From Zingiber officinale (Eukaryota; Streptophyta; Magnoliopsida; Zingiberales; Zingiberaceae): a stretch of 64,000 bases of DNA. Each line of letters opens with the position of its first letter. Position 1 is the stretch's first letter. Positions 3,637 through 60,922 of this stretch are shown piece after piece. The notes under the pieces are model-generated. The model was not told the origin of the DNA. It did no database searches and saw nothing but the letters and a program-made list of their open reading frames with translations. Both the position numbers and the translations under genes were made by a program. The DNA lies in assembly GCF_018446385.1 (NCBI RefSeq), contig NC_056004.1:24682492-24746491 (forward strand), read 5' to 3'.

Positions 3637-3684
3637 TCAAATCAGCATATAAGATGACTTTCAAATCAGCATATAAGATGACTT
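3637..3684 (+). repeat. Perfect 24-bp tandem direct repeat in the CLE promoter
   Basis: Two back-to-back identical 24-bp copies (3637-3660 and 3661-3684) of a unit beginning TCAAATCAGCATATAAG, about 250 bp upstream of the CLE-gene ATG. It could be a duplicated cis-element, but this is inferred from position only. Confidence 0.85.
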
Positions 3685-3830
3685 CCAACTCAGAAATTTT
3701 CCATTTATTTTGGCAATAAATTGTCCAACATTATATACGAAAAGATAGAAAGTAGTTATTGCCATCATTATTATAAAATATTAATTTGATAAGATACGAT
3801 TTCATTGCTAAAATACTTAGTACCTCTCTC

Positions 3831-3839
3831 TATATATAT
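3831..3839 (+). promoter_or_regulatory. Probable TATA box of the multi-CLE gene
   Basis: TATATATAT follows a CT-rich run (tacctctctc), about 95 bp before the ATG at 3933. A start site near 3862 would give a leader of roughly 70 nt. Confidence 0.6.
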
Positions 3840-3932: not shown

Positions 3933-4703
3933 ATGGAGGAAATTAGAAGAGCAATACACAATATTCCCCTTGCATTAGCCCTTGCAGCTTTGATCTTAGC
4001 ATCCTTCATGGCCACTGAAGCTGATGGATATCGACCTCTGCACGATGCTCCTGAAGGTCCTGATCCTATCCATAACGAAGAAAGGTTTAACTTTAAGCTT
4101 CTACACGATGCACCTGAAGGTCCTGATCCTATCCATAATGATGCATACTTTAAGCCTCTGCACGATGTTCCTGAAGGTCCTAATCCTATCAACAACGGTG
4201 AGGGGTTTAACTTCGAGCCTCTACAAGATACTCCTGAAGCTCCTAAACCTTTCCATAAGGAAGAAAGGTTTAACTTTAAGTCTCTCCACGATGTTCCTGC
4301 AGGTCCTAATCCTATTAACAACGGAGAGGGGTTTAACTTCAAGCCTCTACAAGATACTCCTGAAGCTCCTAATCATTTTCATAACGAAGAAAGATTTAAC
4401 TTTAACCCTCTCCACGATGTTCCTGCAGGTCCTAATCCTATTAACAACGGAGAAGAGTTTAACTTTAAGCCTCTGCGAGATGTTCCTGCAGGTCCTAATC
4501 CTATTAACAACGGAGAGGGGTTTAACTTCAAGACTCTACAAGATACTCCTGAAACTCCTAATCATTTCCATAACGAAGAAAGATTTAACTTTAAGCCTCT
4601 CCACGATGTTCTTGCAGGTCCTAATCCTATTAACAACGAAGAAAAATTTAACTTTAAGCCTCTGCACGATGTTCCTGAAGGTCCTAATCCTATCAACAAC
4701 TAA
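3933..4703 (+). CDS. Secreted precursor with eleven CLE/TDIF-like peptide repeats
   Basis: 256-residue intronless protein. Residues 1-30 form a signal peptide (basic EEIRR start, hydrophobic IPLALALAALILASF core). From residue 37 it is a tandem array of 12-mers starting at 37, 58, 77, 98, 119, 140, 161, 182, 203, 224 and 245. The spacing is exactly 21 residues except one of 19. Units such as HDVPAGPNPINN match the B-type CLE peptide TDIF (HEVPSGPNPISN) at nine of twelve positions, including the P-x-G-P-N-P core. Units 4, 6 and 9 (QDTPEAPNHFHN type) lack the Gly and are degenerate; unit 10 has Leu for the first Pro. The linker is GEGFNFKPL or EERFNFKPL. The protein ends exactly on a peptide unit. 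CLE peptides are extracellular ligands of CLV1/PXY-type receptor kinases; which receptor applies here is unknown. The start is the first ATG after the TATA box, since the in-frame codons upstream begin with GTG. Family assignment rests on the motif; function is inferred. Confidence 0.8.
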   Translation: MEEIRRAIHNIPLALALAALILASFMATEADGYRPLHDAPEGPDPIHNEERFNFKLLHDAPEGPDPIHNDAYFKPLHDVPEGPNPINNGEGFNFEPLQDTPEAPKPFHKEERFNFKSLHDVPAGPNPINNGEGFNFKPLQDTPEAPNHFHNEERFNFNPLHDVPAGPNPINNGEEFNFKPLRDVPAGPNPINNGEGFNFKTLQDTPETPNHFHNEERFNFKPLHDVLAGPNPINNEEKFNFKPLHDVPEGPNPINN

Positions 4704-4791
4704 TAAAGCTTTAACTTTAAGCCATGATTGAAAGGAAGCCTTATTGCGACTGCATGATGATTCTGAAGGTTCCAGCATCCTACGTAATTAG
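4704..4791 (+). repeat. Decayed twelfth CLE unit beyond the stop codon
   Basis: After the TAA at 4701 the repeat continues in ruined form. 4707-4724 reads SFNFKP in the gene's frame, then TGA. 4750-4788, in another frame, reads LHDDSEGSSILRN followed by TAG, recalling LHDVPEGPNPINN. The array was therefore at least one unit longer before stops and a frameshift cut it. Confidence 0.7.
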
Positions 4792-4856: not shown

Positions 4857-4862
4857 AATAAA
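4857..4862 (+). terminator. Poly(A) signal candidate
   Basis: AATAAA about 155 bp after the CLE-gene stop. Another AATAAA overlaps the tandem stop codons at 4702-4707 and is less likely to be used. Confidence 0.5.
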
Positions 4863-21700: not shown

Positions 21701-23813
21701 CACGACATTAGCGGTGGGCTCGCGGGCGGCCGACGATCGGACGAGGAGAATTCAGAGAGGGGCTCGGGAGAGGTGAGGAATCAGGAAGGTGATAGTGGGG
21801 AAGAGGTAAGCTAGGTTTTATATCTAGGTTAATTAATCTAACCTTAGGTTAGATTTAATTAAAGTCTATGTTTACTCCTTAATCAACTTCCACTTAAATG
21901 GTGTTCCAAATAGGCTTCCACCTAGCCTCACCGATTCATCCCATCAAAACGAGTCATACGGACTCCGTTTAAATTTCTAAAAATTCTTGAAAAATCCAAT
22001 AAGATTATTTCTCAAATAACCTTATTATTTATTTATTATTTGGGTGTCATATTTTACACACATTCTCCTAGGGCTATGTATTCAGCCTCAGTGGTAGATA
22101 AAGCAACACAATGTTACTTTCTGCTTGACCAACTTACTAGGTATTGACCTAGAAATTGATAGCTGTCACTTATGTTTTTTCTATCTAACTTGCACCCGAT
22201 ATAGACTGAGTTAGAATAGCCAGTTAGGTTAAAGGTGCAAGACCTAGGGTACCAGAGTCCTACATTTAAAGTTCCCTTAATATATCTAAGTATTCTTTTG
22301 ACAAAGGTTAAGTGAGACTCTTTTGCACAAGATTGGTATCTTGCACACATTCCTACTACAAAAAGAATATCTGGTCTGCTTGCAGTTAGGTACAGTAAAC
22401 TTCCTATCGCACTTCGATAGTATTTCAAGTCTACTGGTTTACCTTCTAAGTCTGAGTCAATTTTAATATTAGTAGCCATTGGTGTATTAATATTTTTTGA
22501 GTTTTTCATTCCAAATTTCCTAACTAATTCCTTAGCATATTTAGTCTGGTAAATGTAAATTCCATCTTTGGTTTGCTTAATTTGTAAACCTAAGAAAAAG
22601 TTAAGTTCACCTATTAGGCTAATTTCAAATTCACTTTCCATTAATCTGGTAAATTCTTTTAAAAATTTTGAGTTGGTTGATCCAAAAATTATATCGTCTA
22701 CATAAATTTGGGCTATAAAAATATTTTTTCTAAGGTTTTTACAAAAAGGGTTGGATCTATTTGACCTTTGTTGAATCCTTTTGATATTAGATAATTAGAC
22801 AAGCGCTCATACCAAGCCCTGGGTGCTTGTTTTAATCCATATAGGGCTTTTTTTAGTCTAAAGACATGATTTGGATGTCCTAAGTCCTCAAATCCTAGGG
22901 GTTGACCTACATATACCTTTTCTTTGATAAATCCGTTTAAGAAAGTAGATTTTACATCCATTTGATAAAGCTTGAATCCTTTATGTGCTGCGTAGGCCAG
23001 CAGCATTCTAATAGATTCAAGTCTGGCTACAGGGGCATATATCTCATCATAGTCTAACCCTTCTATTTAGTTGAACCCTTTAGCTACTAACCTTGCTTTG
23101 TTTCTAACTATTTCACCCTGATCATTTAACTTATTCCTAAAAACTCATTTAGTGTCAATTATGGTCTTGTTAATGAGTTTAGGTACTAATTCCCAGACCT
23201 GATTTCTTTCAAATTGGGTTAATTCCTCTTGCATTGCTAGTGTCCAGTCTGGGTTGGGTAGAGCTTCATCTATAATTTTGGGTTCAATTTTTGAGATAAG
23301 GGATATTTGGCTTAGGTTCCTATAAGATGACCTAGTTTTGACTCCTAGAGTTGGATCACCCAAAATTTGGTTAGATGGGTGATTGGTACCAGTTCTTGTT
23401 GGTCTTATATTTGGGTTAGTAATTGGTTCTTCAGATTCATTAGGTTCAGGTTGAATTTCGTCATCATCTTCTGTATTTCTTGAGTTAATATTTTCTATAT
23501 TATTATTTTCATTTATTATATTGGGAAGTTTATTTTTTTCATCAAATATTACATTTATTGTTTCTTCAACTTTTAGGGTATATTTGTTATAAACTCTATA
23601 TGCCCTACTGGTTGTTGAGTACCCTAGAAATATTCCTGGGGTTATTTTTGACGAAAATTTACCTAAGTAGTCTTTAGTGTTTAAAATAAATAATTTACAC
23701 CCAAATACTTTTAAATAGTTTAAGTTAGGAATTTTATTATAGTATATTTCATAGGGTGTTTTATTCTGAAATTTGTTAATTAAAATCCTATTTTGTATAT
23801 AACAGGCTGTATT
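18740..23813 (-). pseudogene. Copia C pol: integrase end, RT and RNase H, split by a solo LTR
   Basis: Minus-strand reading gives, in order: the integrase C-terminal region (23813-23145: NTACYIQNR..., VFGCKLFILN); the start of RT (23006-22713: [33 protein letters not shown]); the catalytic box IYVDDIIFGS (near 22700); the rest of RT with early RNase H (22641-22114: GELNFFLGLQIKQ, SRPDILF); then RNase H ALSTTEAEYIALGEC (about 22110-22064). Here the 3.1-kb solo LTR interrupts. RNase H resumes at 18947 with SQLLWMMHTLKDYQLEYQ and HIEVKHHFVRDHVAKGD, ending at 18740. A frameshift precedes the YVDD box and others lie near 23040-23145. The 5' part (gag, protease, integrase core) is lost at 23814. 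Copia-type order. Confidence 0.88.
18948..22058 (-). mobile_element. Solo gypsy LTR inserted in copia C RNase H
   Basis: 3111-bp LTR from TGTCACGCCCC to ...ATTTTACA with perfect 5-bp target duplication CACAT (18943-18947 and 22059-22063). It is the same family as 9968-13177. No internal region or second LTR is present, so it is the product of LTR-LTR recombination. Removing it with one CACAT restores the copia RNase H reading across the junction (GEC then SQLLWMMH, one codon group apart). Confidence 0.95.
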
Positions 23814-24673
23814 TGTTGGAACCTCAAGGTGTTTTGATGTGATCAAACGAATTAAATTAGGTCCTATTTTGTCTAATCCTTATGTCTAAGTGTACAGGAG
23901 ATTAGGAACACAGGAAGTCGAGCGGAAGACGCGACTAGCGAGAAGGACGGCACGAGAGAGAGCCGACGGGCTCGGTGTGTCCGAGGGACGAGGTGACCGC
24001 GGAAGAGTACACCTGCGGACAAGAAGAACGTACGCGACATTCGAGAGACGAGAAACCGGGAAAGAAGGCTACTCGAGGAGAAGGCCAGAACTTGGGTTCG
24101 GGTGAGCCATATTCCGGATGGCCGAGATCACCCAAGCTAGTGGAGCCGGAACAGAAAACTCGGACCGAGACGAACTGAACCGGAGCAGTGGAATCGGACC
24201 ACAAAAAGTTAACTGGGTTGACTTAAGTGGTCCGGGCGCCCGAAACCATTCTGGGTGCCCGGAAGTGGATTTTGACCAGATCGAGTTTTGACTCGATCTG
24301 AACATTGGGAGATAAAATTTTATCCCCCCCAGGGCGCCCCGATCAGTGCTATAAATATAGCACTGATTAGCACAGATCATTTAACTCACTTGTAATCAGT
24401 TTCTTAGTGCTTTACTTTTCTGTCTGTACTCTCAAGGCTATAAAAGGCTACTCCGCCCGAAGGAGATCGTCAGATAGTGCACCGTATTCGTCTTGGATTA
24501 GCAATCCTCTTATTGCAAACTAAGTAAATCTCTTGTATCTGATTTTTTTATTTAGTCTCTGTTTCTTTTATTACAAGTGTCTGTTATTAAGTTGAAAATC
24601 CGAGAAAGATTTGTGTTAATTTTTGTAGGGCAATTCACCCCTCCCCTCTTGCTGGCCTCCAAAAGGACCAACA
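23814..24673 (+). mobile_element. 5' LTR of Sirevirus-like copia D
   Basis: 860-bp LTR from TGTTGGAACCTC to GGACCAACA. The TATA region is an inverted repeat, AGTGCTATAAATATAGCACT (24346-24365). The LTR is followed by a primer-binding site, which fixes plus-strand orientation and 5' LTR identity. It interrupts copia C within its integrase. The GC-rich open frames inside (23890-24380) are not genes. Confidence 0.88.
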
Positions 24674-39528: not shown

Positions 39529-39611
39529 ATAACTAATTTTTCCAAGAATTTTTACTTATTTAAACATTTTACTTTAAAATATAATCAATCTGTTTCACAA
39601 AATTAACAAAT

Positions 39612-39685
39612 GGCCTATTAGCTCAGTTGGTTAGAGCGTCGTGCTAATAACGCGAAGGTCGCAGGTTCGAAACCTGCCTTGGCCA
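39612..39685 (+). tRNA. tRNA-Ile(AAU), copy 1
   Basis: 74 nt, GGCCTATTAGCTCAGTTGG... with anticodon loop CTAATAA (anticodon AAT), T-arm GGTTCGAAACC and discriminator A. The acceptor stem has two mismatches (3' strand CTTGGCC against GGCCTAT), so it is weaker than copy 2. Upstream AACAA and a downstream T-run (TTTTT near 39694) suit Pol III. It reads AUU/AUC isoleucine codons after A34-to-inosine editing. Confidence 0.82.
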
Positions 39686-39776
39686 ATAATTAATTTTTAT
39701 CATTTTCTCAGAACTTTTACTTATTTAAACATTTTATTTTTAATTATAGTAATTTTGTTTCACAACATTAACAACT

Positions 39777-39850
39777 GGCCTATTAGCTCAGTTGGTTAGA
39801 GCGTCGTGCTAATAACGCGAAGGTCGCAGGTTCGAAACCTGCATAGGCCA
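39777..39850 (+). tRNA. tRNA-Ile(AAU), copy 2
   Basis: 74 nt, with a fully paired acceptor stem (GGCCTAT / ATAGGCC), box A TAGCTCAGTTGG, box B GGTTCGAAACC, anticodon AAT. Upstream TTAACAACT and a downstream run of T after 39857 serve as Pol III start and stop context. It starts 165 bp after copy 1. Best-formed gene of the cluster. Confidence 0.93.
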
Positions 39851-39943
39851 ACATAACTAATTTTTTTCAGTTTCTCAGAATTTTTTCTTATTTAAACATT
39901 ATATTTTTAAATATAATTATTGTGTTTCATAACGTTAATAGCT

Positions 39944-40017
39944 GGCTTATTAGCTCAGTTGGTTAGAGCGTCGTGCTAATAACGCGAAGGTCGCAGGTTC
40001 GAAACCTGCATGGGCCA
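39944..40017 (+). tRNA. tRNA-Ile(AAU), copy 3
   Basis: 74 nt. The acceptor stem GGCTTAT / ATGGGCC pairs with two G-U wobbles. The core is identical to copies 1 and 2, with anticodon AAT, and a T-run follows at about 40026. It starts 167 bp after copy 2. Confidence 0.9.
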
Positions 40018-40310
40018 ATAATTAATTTTTCTCAGTTTTTCAGAATATTTACTTAATTTCTTCTTCCGAGCAAATCGTAAATGGGCCTCTTGTACACCAT
40101 TTTAAATTTCTGCAATTTATTCTTCTGACGAAACCGTAAATGGGCCTCTTGTACACTTTTATGCCCCGATTGTTTTTTCAATTTCACGAATGATAATTCT
40201 GAAATCCTCTTCTCATGCTTGGGAATTAATTTTTGTAATATTAATTTTTAAAAATTGAACCAGTTTGCGTTAGAATTTAAATTAACTTAGCTATCATTTT
40301 AAAATATATT

Positions 40311-43662: not shown

Positions 43663-46600
43663 ATGGGAACAAAAGTGCACTGCAAAAGCTACCTTCCTGG
43701 GTTTCAGCCGCCAGGGGATCTAAACGAAGATTCCAACTTCAGCTGGACACTGTTTTGTGAACACAAATCTATCGGCAGACAACTGTACAACGATTTCCAG
43801 CCAAGGGGAGTTGGAAGCTGTTTGGAATATGACAAAGACATGTTGAAGAGAACAATGCTAGAACATGAAGCTATATTCCAGAATCAGGTTTGTTCGACAA
43901 TCAGAACACACTAGGCTCGATGAGCATTGATGTTTTTCCCTAGTTAGACGAATGAATTTGTTCATTTCATCAAAAGAAGTTCAACTTTTTTCATATCCTG
44001 TTTGGTAAAGAAATTTCATTCTGGAATCCAGGTTTATGAACTTCATCGTGTTTATAGAATACAGAAGGAGCTGATGCATGAGCTTAAGAAAACACAAATG
44101 AACAGATATTGCCAGACTTCGAATTCAAGCATGCTTGTATCTAGATTGCGTTCTGAGTTGGATGAAAAGGGATGGCTTGCACCTCATCAACCTCTAATGA
44201 CTAAACCAAATGTTATACAAGATAGCGAGGACGACAAAGTCTCTTTGCACTTTCTGAATAAAGACATGACTCCAAGTAAACATGGGAAATGTGTTGAGAG
44301 TGACAAACCAGAGGAAACTGAGCCCAAGAAATTTACTGGAAGAATTTTGGATCTTCATCTCCCTGCTGATGTTTACATAGAAAAGGAGGTTACTGAAAAA
44401 ATTGAAAGAGAAAATGTTCATGGCATCGAGGCTGAAAATGGTGTCAAATTAACTCTTGGCAGCATCGATATTCATGGATTCAGAAAAGGTTGCTTAAAAT
44501 CAAATTGGGATTCCGATGATCAATCAGTTCATAGTTTGGCTGATCTGAATGAGCCTATTACAGAGTCTTGGGAGAATGAGGCTGTCAATTCAAATACACA
44601 TAAATTGGATGGTGTGAATGTACTCTCCAAAGAACTTGAAAAGCCTTGTTTATTGACAGAATCAGAATCAAAAACGAAGTTTCCACATATTTATCTCTCC
44701 AATAATGATGGCGCAAACAGCCTCGATGCAGAGACAGTTGGGATAATACAAGAACAACAGACACTCAACGATTGTGCTGGTAAGAACAATGGCCAATACT
44801 TGTGAACTTATGAAGCCTTACTTCTCTATAGGAATTGAATTCCTTGAAAAGCATTACTTCATTGTTTTTGGCTTGTAAGAGCATGTTGTTTCGCATATGA
44901 TTTCCTTGATGATGCATTGCTCCATAACTGTGAATATATCGTCGTTTCCGGTTATAACCTTTTACTGGTGCACATTTAATTTTTTTAGCAACTGTTTCTG
45001 CTGCTGATAGTTTGATGTGCCATAATTCAGTGTTTTTGGTTTTCATAGGGCAAAGTATCGCCGATACCAATGAATGCCCAAGTTCATCTGAGCAACTAAA
45101 GTTGAAATTTGATAAATCTGAAGAAAATTACTTGCTTGAGCAAGATGAAATAAGGACTTGGTTTCGAGAGAAAACTATCTGCATTGAAAATTCTGCTAAT
45201 CCAGGTCTACCAACTAGCTTGAATAATCCTAGACTTAAAGCTTCTCAGGTCACTCCGTTATCGGCAGCATATCCACCAGCTCCAGCTTGCACAAAGCCAA
45301 TGCAGATTATTGGCCAACCTCCAGTCTCACTTCAAGCATTACCTTGTTTCAAGAGCTACAATGGTTATTCACAGCCACACAGGGGACTTGATAATTTAAT
45401 CTTATCCCACACTAGTGGTCATCGTCATGCCATTCAAATGAACTTGACTTCTTTGGCTAATATACAACATCTGCAGAGCAACCTTGGAAAATCAAATCTC
45501 AGTGACAGTAATGGTAGTTCACCATATGAAAGCTCCCAAAACCATGAACTCCAAAGACCCTTCAAGGACTCAAAGTCAATAAATTTTGAGTCTCTGAAGG
45601 GTTTGAATTTGAACCAGGCAATTCTGTGTGGAACTCAAGATGGTTTTGCAGACCAAGAAAATTTAGTTAGGAAGCATGAGGAAGCCCCTGACAAATTTAT
45701 TTGGCCTAGAGAATGGTCATCTTGCAATGGTCATGCTGACAGAAAAGAAAATGACACTAGATCCAATGTGCATTTCAATGCTGAATTTAGAGGATTAGAA
45801 ATCAAAAGCCTGGATGCTGATCTTGCAAGCAATCTTGGAAAAGGAAAAGGATTTAGAAATTGCAGTCAAGGTTTAGAAAGCGAGATTAATTTGAATTGTG
45901 AGGTAATACCTGTTACCGAAAATAAACTGTGTGAAGCTTCAACTGAAGGTATTCCATCTTCACTTCCTATGGCTGCGGCTGTTGGCAAATTGGCTTGCCA
46001 AATTGATCTGGAAGTACCAGCTGATGAACTGGAAGACAATGATATGGATGTCTATATCAATCAACCAATTGCTGCAGCAGTTATGTCAGCGGAGAAGATA
46101 TCCTCCCTGGATGTTTGCATCAAATCAGCTGCAGATGCAATTATTTCAATGTCCATAGATGCACATAATCATTTAGATAATATCACAAGTATTCCCTCCG
46201 CACCAGCTACTTGTGATTCCTTGCATTTGTTAGCAAAGATAGCTACATGTATCGTGGAGTCATTTGAAGCTTCTGGTGATGACGGATTGGATTTCTTCGA
46301 GTCAATGACATTGAAACTGGATGAACTCAAGGCAGATGAATTCAGTTGCAAATCTTTCAAACACGAGAAGCCAAAGGATGATGAGAAGTCTACTTGCTCA
46401 ATGCTTTCAAGGTCTAGAAGGGCTCAGGCAAAGAAGAGAACGCAAAGGAGAGATTTCAAGAAAGATGTCCTTCCAGCACTCACATCATTGTCCAAGCATG
46501 AAGTGACTGAGGATCTTCAAGTGCTCGGAGGGATAACAAGAGCTTCAAAGTTGCAACTGACTGGTTCTACAAAGACAAAAAGGAGCAAACACAAGACAAG

Positions 46601-46784
46601 TTCTCAAAGGGGGCGAAGACAAGCGAGAAGTTTGGCCATTGCAATTGCAGAAATGCACAATAGTCCCCCTCGAACACTACCTATTCACACAGAATTGGAG
46701 AATGCTAGGAGTAGCATAATGGGATGGGGGAGGACTACTAGAAGATGTCCGAGACAAAGAACAGCTAATGCCGCGGCTCCCTAG
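43663..46784 (+). CDS. DUF863 family protein (three coding exons)
   Basis: Coding exons 43663-43887, 44032-44779 and 45049-46784 give about 902 residues. The introns (144 and 269 bp) have GT/AG ends in phases 0 and 1. The N-terminus MGTKVHCKSYLPGFQPPGDL, then NEDSN, DKDMLKRTMLEHEAIFQNQ and VYELHRVYRIQKELM, is the conserved head of plant DUF863 (PF05904) proteins; residues 57-100 look helical or coiled-coil. Residues 325-902 are long, polar and of low complexity, with a DELKADEF patch, basic stretches (RAQAKKRTQRRDFKKD, KTKRSKHK, RGRRQAR) and the conserved tail SLAIAIAEMHNSPPRTLP and MGWGRTTRRCPRQR. The basic patches suggest a nuclear location. The molecular role of the family is not known to me. 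Length and both conserved ends match full-length relatives, so the gene looks intact. An in-frame upstream ATG at 43283 could add 14 residues through the leader splice. Confidence 0.92.
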
Positions 46785-52191: not shown

Positions 52192-53505
52192 TCATTTTTT
52201 TAACTTTGTGTTTTCCTCCTCAAGTGTTACATCTTGATTTGAATTTTTATTTTTAATTTGTTCCTTGAGGCATTGATTTTCCTCAAGAAATGATTCATTT
52301 TGTTTTTCATGTTTGATTAATTTATTATTTAAACATGCAATTATTCGAAAAAAAAAATTGGAGGTTAAGATAGAAGATACCTTGTTCGGACCTTCATAAA
52401 CGAGTGTGGACTTGTAGCTTGATTCGTCTTTAGACTCGTCATCTTGCTCCGACTTGCTTTTTGATTCCGACTCCATTACTATCAATGCGAGGTAGTTGTG
52501 ATACTTCTGATCTTCGACATCTGATTCTTCTGAAGATGATTCATCCCACATCGCCATGAGTGTCTTATTCTTTCTGGTTGTTTTGGGTTTGTCCTCTTTC
52601 ATCTTTAGACACTCGTGCTTGTAGTGTCCTTTCTTGTTACACCTGTAGCATGTGATATTCGCCTTCGTGTCATTTGACTTGATTACCTTTTGTTGGTCAT
52701 TTTTTGAGAAATTGTTCTTTCTTCTTGTGAACATTTTTTTGACCATGTTCACGAGTTGTTCTTCTTCATTTTCTAAGTCAGATTCATATTCTTGCTCTGT
52801 CTTGTTTTTGTGTTTACCTTCTTTAGAGGGACCTGCAAAAAGTGCAATACCTTTCTCAACCTGTTTTGAGTTAATTTGTTCATGGAGTTCAAGTTCACAA
52901 AGCAACTCATCTAATTTTAATTTAGATAGGTTCCTTAAAATTTTGTAGCCATCCATGATGAATGTCCATAGTGCATTTCGAGAAAACGCGTTTAGAGAAT
53001 ACCTTATCAAGTCTCGGTCCTCCATTTGATGGCCGATTGTGTGGAGCCCATTGAGGACGTCTTTTATCATTGCATGTAGTTGACTCATAGATTCCCCTTC
53101 CTACATTTTTATGTTAAATAATTTATTTAAAAATAGATCCCTTTTATTACCTTTGTGTCATTCGTTCCCTCGTGTAGTTTGATGAGTTTGTCCCACAGCT
53201 CCTTCATGTTTTCCTGTGGGCCGACGCGATTTAGCTCCTCCTTGGTTAATCCACACTGGATTGTGTTGAAATCCTTGAAGTTGATATGAGTCTTCTTCTT
53301 TATTTCCGGCGTTGTCGACGGACGCCTTGTATCCTTTGGTGACACTGAACCATTGGTCAAAGTCGGTCTTCAAATACACCTCCATCTCCTTCTTCCAGTA
53401 TGGGAAGTCGTCACTGTTAAAGAGGGAGGACAGACGGTACTGTATCCCTCGTTTGGGCCATTTTAAGTCACCTTTGCAGACAAATAAACAAAAAGGAGAT
53501 CCCAA
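52192..53505 (-). pseudogene. Copia A gag, frameshifted
   Basis: The minus strand is read in three frames. 53505-53158 has SDDFPYWKKEMEVYLKTDFD then QWFSVTKGYKA, the conserved start of copia gag (UBN2 type). 53360-53127 has GLTKEELNRV...KELWDKLIKLHEGT. 53088-52192 has a long C-terminal part with a zinc knuckle, CYRCNKKGHYKHEC (CX2CX4HX4C), followed by acidic Ser/Glu-rich sequence. At least two frameshifts. The zinc knuckle would bind element RNA in an intact copy. Confidence 0.88.
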
Positions 53506-58202: not shown

Positions 58203-60922
58203 ATCTCCCACATGAATGGAAATTAATGCATGTATGCATGTTGACACTTTACAAGAGTCAAATCGATAAGTCAATGCATCAAGAGAGGTAGCTTGCGGCT
58301 TTGAACCTTCCGTAGTAAAATGCTATCGAGCATACTAGGTTGCGCAGTGAACGTGATGTCTTGAACTGCTCAGCTGTTTGTGTATACTCAGACAATAACA
58401 CCCATACAAGGATTTATCTCACCTACTTTTAGTTCTCATGGTTAGTTCCGTTTTGGCCATGGACATCATCTTGGATTCATGAGTGTTTCATTGAAGCGAC
58501 ATATCTTCACACTCACATATGTGACACTTCTATCAAGAGTTTCTTACCATACTCCACCTCATAAAGGTATAGAAGTCATTAAAAGCATATGCTTAATCTC
58601 ACTACATGTGGTAGGATAGCACAAGTTCATCCTAGGATTGGGATAGAAATAATATATCTCGTGTGCTGTAACACAACTTCTGTAACTTCATTATCCCATT
58701 GAACCAAGATCTTGGAATCTCCAGTCAACAAGGTTGGTTTACCGCTATAATCGTTTTAATTGTAGATTTTTATCTCATTCCTCTCGATGAGCAGTATACT
58801 TGATCTCGACTTAGCCCACAAGGTTGGGTTACTGCTATAGTCGTTTTAATTGTAGATTTTTATCTCATTCCTCTCGATGAGCAGTATACTTGATCTCGAC
58901 TTAGCCCCTTCGTAAGAGGGTCTGCCAAATAATCTTTTGACTTGACATAGTTTATTACAATCACTCGGTTCAAGATCAACTACCTAATGGTATTATGTCT
59001 ACGACGTATATATCGTGACTTACCATTATACATACTACTCTGTGCCCTTTCAATTACCGATTGACTATCATGGTGTATAAGTATGGCAGGCATAGGTTTC
59101 GTCCAATTCGGAATATCTTCCAAGAAATTCCTCAGTCATTTAGCTTCTTCTACTATTTTGTCTAGTGATATAAACTCAGATTCCATAGTTAACCGAGCAA
59201 TGCATGTCTGTTCTGTGGATTTCCAAGAATACCACTCCACCAATTGTGAATACATACACACTAGTGGATTTGGAATCTTTTGTATCTAATATCCAATTAG
59301 CATCACAATATCCCTCTAAGACAGCGGGATACGCTCCGTAATGTAATCTGTATTTCATAGTACATTTCAAATATCTAAGAACTCGCATATTAGTGCTTTC
59401 CAATGGGTGTCATTTAGATTACTCGTAAAATGACTCAACTTGTTTACCACACAATTAATATCTGGACGTGTGCAGTTTGCGAGATACATCAAGCTGCCTA
59501 TTAACCAAGAATATTCCAATTACGATATGGGCTCATCATGGTTTTTCGCTAAGTGTTGACTTAAATCAATAGGTATTTTTACTGTAGAGAGATCGTACGC
59601 ATTGAACTTTTTCAACACTAACTCTACATAATGGGATTGTGTCAAAACTATCCCATCGGATATCCTAAGAATTTTAATTCCCAATATAACATCTGCTGGA
59701 CTCATATCTTTCATATCAAAATTCTTGGTCAGCATTTTCTTTGTACTCATGATTACTATCCATTATAAGCATGTCGTCTATTATATAGACAAATGATTAC
59801 ATGACCTTAGGTGTGTGTTTGACATAAATACATTTGTCACATTCATTTATTTTGAATTTGTTTGATAGCATTGTTTTGTCAAATTTTTCGTGCCATTGTT
59901 TAGGCACTTGTTTAAGTTCGTACAATGACTTAACAAGTCGACACACCTTTTTCTCTTTCCCTGGAGCTACGAAGCCCTCAGGTTGCTCCATATAGATTTC
60001 TTCTTCCAACTCATCATTTAAGAACGCAGTCTTAACATCCATTTGGTGTATTTCAAGGTTAAATAGGGTTGTGATGACTATCAACACTCGTATGAACGTA
60101 ATCCATGTCACCGGTGAGTAGGTATTGAAGTAATCAAGATCTTCCTTTTGCTTGTATCCTTTAGCTACAAGTCTGACCTTATACTTGTTAATCAATCCAT
60201 CAACTTTATACTTGCATTTTAGTATCCACTTACAATTTAATGGTTTAGTACCAAAAGAAAGGTCCACTAATTCCCAAGTATGGTTATTCATAATGAACTT
60301 GATTTCATTATTGATAGCTTCTTTCCACAATGGGTCGTAGGGACTAGAGAGAGCTTCGCTTAATGTTTTTGGGTCCATTTCCGACATAAAAGTCATGAAG
60401 TCCGGCCCGAATGATTTCTCAACTCTAGCCCATTTGCTCCGATGTGGCTCTTCGCTTTGATTGTCAATAGTCCTTTTATGACAACTAAGTTCAGAAATGT
60501 CATTTTCGTTAGAACTTCCATTATTATCACTTTGAATGTTTCCCTTCTTATTCGGGAATATGTTTTCAAAGAATATCACATTCTGAGATTATATGGTTGT
60601 TCCCACATGAATATCAGGAATATCTAACTTGTGAACTATGAAACGATATGCACTACTGTTATGGGCATATCCGACAAATATCATATCGAACGTTTTAAGT
60701 CCAATCTTTACTTGCTTTGGCTTGGGTACTTCAACCTTTGCTAAGCACCCTCACACTTTCAGGTATTTGTACGATGACTCGCGACCTTTCCATAGTTTAT
60801 TTGGTGTTTTATCATTTTTCTTATGAGGGAGTTTGCTAAGAATGTAGTTTGCCGATAATATAGTTTCCCCCCACAAGTTCTGGGGTAAACCTGAATTTAT
60901 CAACCAGGCATTCATCATTTCC
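58203..60922 (-). pseudogene. Copia F pol: integrase end, RT, RNase H
   Basis: Minus strand, 5' to 3'. 60922-60600 is the integrase end (MMNAWLINSGLPQNLWGETI, NKLPHKKN). 60579-59797 is a linker and RT (EALSSPYDPLWKEAINNEI, VRLVAKGYKQKEDLDYFNTY, QMDVKTAFLNDELEEEIYME). 59750-59520 is RT end (MKDMSPADVILGIKI). 59403-59176 is an RNase H start ([19 protein letters not shown]). Stops, frameshifts and a 90-bp duplication (58728-58907) follow. The LTR-proximal side is complete but gag and the 5' LTR are missing beyond 60922. Confidence 0.85.
58728..58907 (-). repeat. 90-bp tandem duplication in copia F
   Basis: Two adjacent copies of a 90-bp unit beginning ACAAGGTTGG and ending in CTTAGCCC. They differ at only a few sites, so it is a recent local duplication. 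Confidence 0.85.

Follow-up and report, generated by a model that had tools for sequence, protein, structure and literature searches.

Does the ginger DNA at positions 3933–4703 (+) encode a secreted precursor of many TDIF-like CLE peptides and, if so, which of its repeat units could act as ligands? We addressed this question in the window, the whole stretch of 64,000 nucleotides that contains the locus, and in the ginger genome assembly. Analysis of the sequence favors a positive answer: the locus is likely a gene for a secreted multi-CLE prohormone that would release TDIF-like ligands for a PXY/TDR-type receptor. The gene is apparently unannotated.

The reading frame and its surroundings

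The preliminary description of this DNA had proposed a multi-CLE array, and the array was borne out: one open, intronless frame encodes 256 amino acids with eleven 12-residue units (Table 1). The N-terminus is a probable signal peptide. Residues 11–22 are strongly hydrophobic (mean Kyte–Doolittle value of 2.8), and an AF2 model has a helix at residues 11–26 and coil beyond the leader, the coil being a weak result because the model was run without an alignment. At the other end, unit 11 terminates at the stop codon, which places a CLE motif at the very C-terminus. The protein has no Cys, in keeping with the Cys-poor nature of CLE precursors. With a pI of 4.93 it is acidic, whereas a basic pI is reported for most CLE precursors as the usual, not universal, case. 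Its length also falls outside the 60–120 aa filter applied in the CLE search of PMC2254619, a filter that multi-CLE members exceed.

Past the stop codon there may be a decayed twelfth repeat. It matches unit 1 at 24 of 39 nucleotides, and both the best of 300 shuffled flanks and the best match elsewhere in the window reach 22, so that this weak candidate barely exceeds background. A second frame at 4024–4731 (+) is also open, encodes 235 Leu-rich amino acids and spans the entire array. None of its 12-mers was among the 30 best CLE motif scores in a six-frame scan of the window. It is probably a by-product of the 63-nt repeat, which can be stop-free in that frame as well. A 24-bp repeat (2.4 copies) occupies window positions 3637–3693, about 240–296 bp 5′ of the precursor frame.

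Elsewhere in the window, three tandem tRNA-Ile (AAT) genes lie at 39611–40018 (+), spaced by about 166 bp within an array of 165-bp repeats; an Rfam search of the window returned these three tRNA matches and nothing else. Parts of a plant DUF863 gene are found at 44002–46784 (+); along 98% of its length, the frame at 45012–46784 matches a Zingiber officinale DUF863 protein with 100% identity. The window also has pieces of retrotransposons (RVT_2, retroviral SH3-like) and a frame with a zinc knuckle, at 22117–23846 (−), 59800–60579 (−) and 52195–53088 (−). A bacterial promoter scan of the window is uninformative for a plant gene.

Table 1. Features of the multi-CLE locus (window positions) and of related ginger loci (assembly positions)
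Feature	Position	Strand	Remarks
Multi-CLE precursor, intronless ORF, 256 aa	3933..4703	+	Reading frame
Probable signal peptide, residues 1–30	3933..4022	+	Hydropathy; AF2 helix; cleavage after TEA guessed by eye
TATA-like sequence	3831..3838	+	102 nt upstream of ATG
Unit 1 HDAPEGPDPIHN	4041..4076	+	Class A
Unit 2 HDAPEGPDPIHN	4104..4139	+	Class A
Unit 3 HDVPEGPNPINN	4161..4196	+	Class B, TDIF-like
Unit 4 QDTPEAPKPFHK	4224..4259	+	Class C, degenerate
Unit 5 HDVPAGPNPINN	4287..4322	+	Class B
Unit 6 QDTPEAPNHFHN	4350..4385	+	Class C
Unit 7 HDVPAGPNPINN	4413..4448	+	Class B
Unit 8 RDVPAGPNPINN	4476..4511	+	Class B, Arg at position 1
Unit 9 QDTPETPNHFHN	4539..4574	+	Class C, Thr at position 6
Unit 10 HDVLAGPNPINN	4602..4637	+	Class B, Leu at position 4
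Unit 11 HDVPEGPNPINN	4665..4700	+	Class B, up to stop codon
Possible decayed twelfth repeat (weak)	4704..4791	+	Linker-like TTTAACTTTAAGCC, then LHDDSEGSSILRN-stop, shifted frame
AATAAA, possible polyadenylation signal	4857..4862	+	153 nt downstream of stop
Intact family copies	C19: 24639, 24647, 24686 kb		Last is the window copy
Intact family copies	C20: 14674, 14689, 14759, 14793, 14883 kb
Interrupted family copy	C20: 14950 kb		Stop after unit 3
Family fragments	C19: 24602 kb; C20: 14594, 15127 kb
Third CLE-array locus, four CLE-like units	C18:100.71 Mb (100713000–100717000, near 100714693)		RSVPGGPDPIHN, RTVGSGPEPIQH, RKVPSGPDPIHN, RLVPQGPNPIHN

CLE identity of the repeat units

The step between units had been described as fixed at 21 residues; this holds for nine of the ten steps, the exception being 19 residues between units 2 and 3. 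At the DNA level the array is a 63-nt tandem repeat, detected as a 189-nt repeat too. Units 5–7 and units 8–10 share 95, 95 and 94% identity, which suggests that the latter probably arose as a three-unit block copy of the former.

To score the units we used a motif matrix built from 16 distinct CLE 12-mers printed in papers. Among the 60,388 stop-free 12-mers in the six frames of the window, eight of the eleven units took the top eight places, with scores of 20.4–27.7. The best 12-mer that is not a unit scored 11.5, and the best over ten mononucleotide shuffles 13.2. The three units starting with Q (4, 6 and 9) scored no higher than 6.4 and alone would not qualify as CLE. P4, G6, P7, D/N8 and P9 are all present in seven units; unit 10 departs from this five-residue motif at P4 only, and the three Q units lack G6. 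Two CLE units in one frame suffice for a multi-CLE precursor; the uninterrupted frame here has eleven, and for eight of these the CLE score is clear.

Profile searches proposed as a check on CLE identity lent it no support: the 256-aa protein had four weak Pfam matches, all far under the cut-offs, and no NCBIfam match. In a protein database that includes ginger and turmeric proteins, no relative was found at E ≤ 1 among proteins of 141–448 aa or at E ≤ 10 among those of about 53–170 aa, longer or shorter relatives falling outside these two length-limited searches. Absence of the ginger gene among annotated proteins of similar length suggests that routine annotation may miss such genes. Solved structures (chains of at least 20 residues) yielded no match. 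Six of the unit 12-mers, searched as printed letters, were absent from the papers searched; among the matches listed, the ginger peptide literature held only work on IDA and RALF peptides, and no precursor with ten CLE units appeared.

Likeness to TDIF and receptor-binding residues

The units fall into three classes. Class B (units 3, 5, 7, 8, 10 and 11; HDVP[A/E]GPNPINN and near forms) matches TDIF at 8–9 of 12 positions, class A (units 1 and 2) at 7, with V3A and N8D among the differences, and class C (units 4, 6 and 9; QDTPE[A/T]P...) at 3–4. The likeness of nine in twelve claimed for the best units was confirmed, since four units reach it. In the alanine scan of Ito et al. 2006, as quoted in PMC8496505, residues H1, V3, G6, N8, P9 and N12 are critical and positions 2, 5, 7, 10 and 11 tolerant. 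The best units differ from TDIF at positions 2, 5 and 11, all of which tolerate change in the scan (chance probability of 0.045). The earlier count of eleven B-type units does not stand, however. All six critical residues are retained in five units (3, 5, 7, 10 and 11), unit 8 lacks H1, units 1 and 2 lack two of the six (V3A and N8D), and units 4, 6 and 9 miss four or five, Gly6 among them. His1 is present in seven of the eleven units, including five of the six in class B.

Binding data from PMC5383425 point the same way as the scan for H1, V3, G6, N8 and N12. According to this paper, H1, V3, N8, I10 and N12 are anchors and G6 is required; units 3, 5, 7 and 11 keep every anchor together with G6. 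The same study ranks H1 as most important for TDR binding and places position 2 within the N-terminal anchor. Its reported binding losses are about 115-fold for H1A, 11-fold for V3A, 14-fold for G6A, 20-fold for G6T, 3.2-fold for E2A and 2-fold for P9A. In PMC7552357, positions 2, 5, 10 and 11 have little effect on activity yet matter for specific TDR/PXY binding, and three of them (2, 5 and 11) differ from TDIF in the best ginger units. That paper counts position 4, the site of P4L in unit 10, as sensitive. In the part of it on which we draw, the dicot TDIF motif is described as occurring in no monocot, where only HEVPSGPNPDSN is found.

A gene family on C19 and C20

A search of the assembly (3.09 Gb, 211 contigs) gave 33 matches, and family counts are lower bounds because only the best candidates were scored. 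The window gene belongs to a family with at least 12 places on C19 and C20: eight intact copies, one interrupted copy and three fragments. C19 (99.7 Mb) and C20 (97.1 Mb) are, we infer, two homologues of one chromosome. The intact copies encode 151–256 aa with 6–11 units. All eight end in ...PNPINN-stop and all eight have an AATAAA, and TATATA or TATAAA stands at −94 to −102 in each of the ten copies in which the start string was found.

Nine copies contain 75 units, a total that omits those past the stop of the interrupted copy. All six TDIF-critical residues are kept in 27 of them. The commonest unit is the class A form HDAPEGPDPIHN (14/75), and a further form, H[D/S]TPEGPNPINN, accounts for eight. 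Gly6 is absent from every one of the 15 Q-starting units, as opposed to two of the 60 others; these class C units have lost H1 and V3 as well, and P9 in 11 cases. One of them is QDTHEAPKPFHK, in the nine-unit copy at C20:14883.

Several weak matches were rejected as family members. Those on C3, C7 (two), C9 (two), C12:52.98 Mb and C20:0.24 Mb consist of a different, Arg-rich repeat (EGPEPFGRRYNIRAKRST). This (N)EGPEPFGRRYNIRAKRST repeat is dispersed, with tandem copies on several chromosomes, and bears no relation to CLE. The matches on C118, C119 and C12:115.3 Mb turned out to belong to an A-type family described below.

Selection on units and linkers

Pairwise dN/dS among the eight intact copies, with the units aligned by program, ranged from 0.20 to 1.09; the one-sided test gave p < 0.05 for 21 of the 28 pairs, which are not independent of each other. 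For the window copy and its closest copy (C19 24647), the comparison gave no sign of constraint (dN/dS 0.80, p = 0.55). Between intact copies, as many as 25% of synonymous sites differ.

We also counted distinct changes by class, with the interrupted copy included, shared ancestry among repeats and transition bias ignored. Class A had 6 synonymous and 7 nonsynonymous changes (ratio 0.32, p = 0.04) and class B 7 and 11 (p = 0.08), adding up to 13 and 18 (p = 0.007; the counts are not independent). Linkers were represented by the 52 of 66 that have a 9-residue form with two Phe, a choice that leaves out 14 and is biased towards conservation; they had 9 and 13 (p = 0.07), and pooling them with classes A and B gave 22 and 31 (p = 0.0013). 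For the H[D/S]T form the numbers were 1 and 2 (p = 0.5). Class C had 2 synonymous and 12 nonsynonymous changes, with an expected nonsynonymous fraction of 0.81 (p = 1). Owing to shared ancestry, transition bias, the interrupted copy and the choice of linkers, these p-values are optimistic. On these counts, the units of classes A and B tend towards constraint and those of class C look neutral; the direct contrast of A and B with C is suggestive (Fisher p = 0.09). Among the repeats of the window gene alone, codon-position bias was not significant (p = 0.23).

Proposed function and alternatives

The reading as a TDIF-like multi-CLE gene is favored by the motif scores, by the tolerated nature of the differences from TDIF, by a family that is open in 8 of 12 places, by the tendency of A and B units to constraint and by the recurrent TATA-like and AATAAA sites; what had to be given up is that all units are B-type. 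Against the reading count the acidic pI, the failure of the two length-limited searches to find an annotated relative, the differences at three of the PXY-specificity positions of PMC7552357 (one of which, position 2, is in the N-terminal anchor of PMC5383425), the non-significant codon-position bias among the repeats of the window gene and the lack of constraint between this gene and its closest copy. The signal peptide would be removed and the precursor secreted, and apoplastic proteases would cut on either side of residues 1–12 of each good unit. With prolines 4 and 7 hydroxylated, the freed HDVP[A/E]GPNPINN peptides would serve as TDIF-like ligands for a receptor of the PXY/TDR type in the procambium or on cambium-like cells. 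Units 1 and 2 would give a second H-starting peptide, whose Asp8 recurs in many A-type CLEs. Units 4, 6 and 9 most likely end up as inactive by-products under no constraint, and unequal exchange of the 63-nt repeat could alter the number of units. A strong peptide dose from so many units, as had been suggested, would run against the switchgrass case, in which a three-unit TDIF-like precursor gave no amplification in Arabidopsis (PMC8496505).

Among the alternatives, a mostly silent, decaying cluster fares best and is still rather improbable. The array would stem from a formerly functional CLE gene that expanded by its repeats, with frames open only because the copies are fairly recent. Such a view accommodates the lack of an annotated protein in the length-limited searches, the one interrupted and three fragmentary copies among 12 places, the dN/dS of the closest pair, the insignificant codon-position bias within the gene and the possible decayed repeat past the stop. 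However, eight places have stayed intact despite the divergence at synonymous sites, the units of classes A and B show a tendency to constraint, and the leader, TATA-like and AATAAA sites are retained.

It is less probable still that the precursor carries ligands for CLV1/BAM-type receptors and not for PXY. The commonest unit, the class A form with V3A and N8D, would suit such receptors and leans to constraint, unit 8 begins with Arg, and the three PXY-specificity positions of PMC7552357 differ from TDIF. Nevertheless, the 27 units complete for the six critical residues keep H1, foremost for TDR binding in PMC5383425 with its loss of about 115-fold in H1A.

We give about the same low credence to a mixed agonist–antagonist precursor, in which class C units, having Ala, Ser or Thr in place of Gly6, would block the receptor that class B activates. 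The idea gains from the strict association of a Q start with loss of Gly6, from work described in PMC4526918, where Gly6 to Thr or Ala gave an antagonist-like CLV3, and from the antagonist-like behavior of one switchgrass PvTDIFL3 unit (PMC8496505). But the loss of H1, V3 and mostly P9 should make class C binding very weak, and G6A and G6T alone are costly in PMC5383425. Given these other losses and a pattern of change that looks neutral, albeit with p = 0.09 for the contrast with A and B, the Q units more likely reflect decay.

Finally, a chance resemblance to CLE in a proline-rich repeat protein of the extracellular space, as the wealth of Pro, Asn and Phe in the repeats and the want of a significant Pfam or any NCBIfam match might suggest, is highly implausible, since eight units far outscore other window 12-mers and shuffles, the best units differ from TDIF at tolerated positions, and CLE-type arrays with quite different linkers exist in the same genome.

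On a bolder reading, which we hold less likely than not, a single round of translation of any precursor in the family would supply both TDIF-like and Asp8-type peptides in constant proportion, perhaps in connection with cambium-like rhizome growth. The cluster contains intact genes with up to six fully TDIF-like units that keep Ile10. Its natural variation in unit number suits a direct test of the amplification idea of PMC2254619, and A and B units next to neutral-looking Q units in the same proteins offer a within-gene control for which units are relevant.

Other CLE arrays in the ginger genome

A second multi-CLE family, with A-type units of the form R[G/A/T]APSGPDPIHH, is found at C12:115.16–115.41 Mb and on C118, C119 and C2. 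Its longest frame, at C12:115323106–115325985 (+), encodes 960 aa with 25 units, of which 22 are RGA-, RAA- or RTAPSGPDPIHH forms, and the step is 38 aa in 22 of 24 cases. The other 11 copies have ATG-started frames of 183–694 aa, and several matches carry stops. Unit counts in this family, obtained with a single fixed pattern, are minimum values, as are the family counts. At a third locus, on C18, a short frame combines a hydrophobic leader with four CLE-like units (Table 1).

With three types of loci carrying CLE arrays in one genome, long CLE polyproteins recur and are no single oddity. It is conceivable, though we hold this less likely than not, that ginger CLE signaling is a fast-evolving polyprotein system of separate TDIF-like and A-type tandem families varying in the number of genes and of units, in which repeat number would set the peptide dose and the ratio of A-like to B-like ligands released together.

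Comparison with known multi-CLE precursors

Multi-CLE precursors were earlier said to be known from only a few cases, rice genes and nematode effectors among them. Precedents are in fact wider, with examples in legumes, wheat, radish and rapeseed, cotton (some precursors) and switchgrass, and reach nine units in the literature examined; the eleven units of the ginger gene exceed these, and we claim no record. Effectors of plant-parasitic nematodes, which are animal genes named in PMC4526924, are likewise multi-CLE precursors processed into single peptides.

Radish RsCLEm1/2 (eight units) and rapeseed BnCLEm3 (five) resemble the ginger gene in having tandem units with short spacers; for the rapeseed CLEm genes, a stimulating effect on the shoot apical meristem in light is reported (PMC11172632). 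Rice and wheat provide monocot precursors with 2–6 units, namely CLE75, CLE76, CLE30, CLE31, OsCLE502/504/506 and TaCLE26 (PMC2254619, PMC6747155, PMC12677920). In contrast to most ginger units, those printed for rice and wheat start with Arg (one with Met), and they follow each other at steps of 25–37 aa. OsCLE504 is reported to be multi-domain and to cluster with CLE41/42/44/46, and the TDIF-like genes of wheat are described as one copy per genome, with no cluster (PMC6747155, PMC12677920).

Legume precursors likewise have many regularly spaced CLE units: six in GmCLE37a/b, seven in MtCLE14, eight in LjCLE32 and nine in LjCLE33 (PMC4526924, PMC5570945). Repeat motifs in Lotus and Medicago measure 24–35 aa, compared with 21 aa in ginger, and none of these genes is among the TDIF-like genes named in the part of PMC5570945 used here.

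Switchgrass PvTDIFL3-MR3 and -MR2 (PMC8496505) share with the ginger gene a monocot host, a signal peptide (a probable one in ginger), several TDIF-like units (HGVPSGPNPGSN, HDVPSGPNPGSH and HDVPSGPNPGSN) and the lack of an annotation. The likeness extends to units of unequal activity, as predicted for ginger, the middle one of switchgrass having acted antagonist-like, and to a unit number that differs between the two forms. Expressed in Arabidopsis, the three-unit precursor showed no amplification and had weaker effects than a one-unit gene. The switchgrass forms differ in having three or two units, 43–47 aa apart, as against eleven units at 21 aa, and Gly at position 10, which is Ile in ginger. 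Moreover, the ginger gene is part of a tandem family, of which the portion of PMC8496505 consulted makes no mention for PvTDIFL3.
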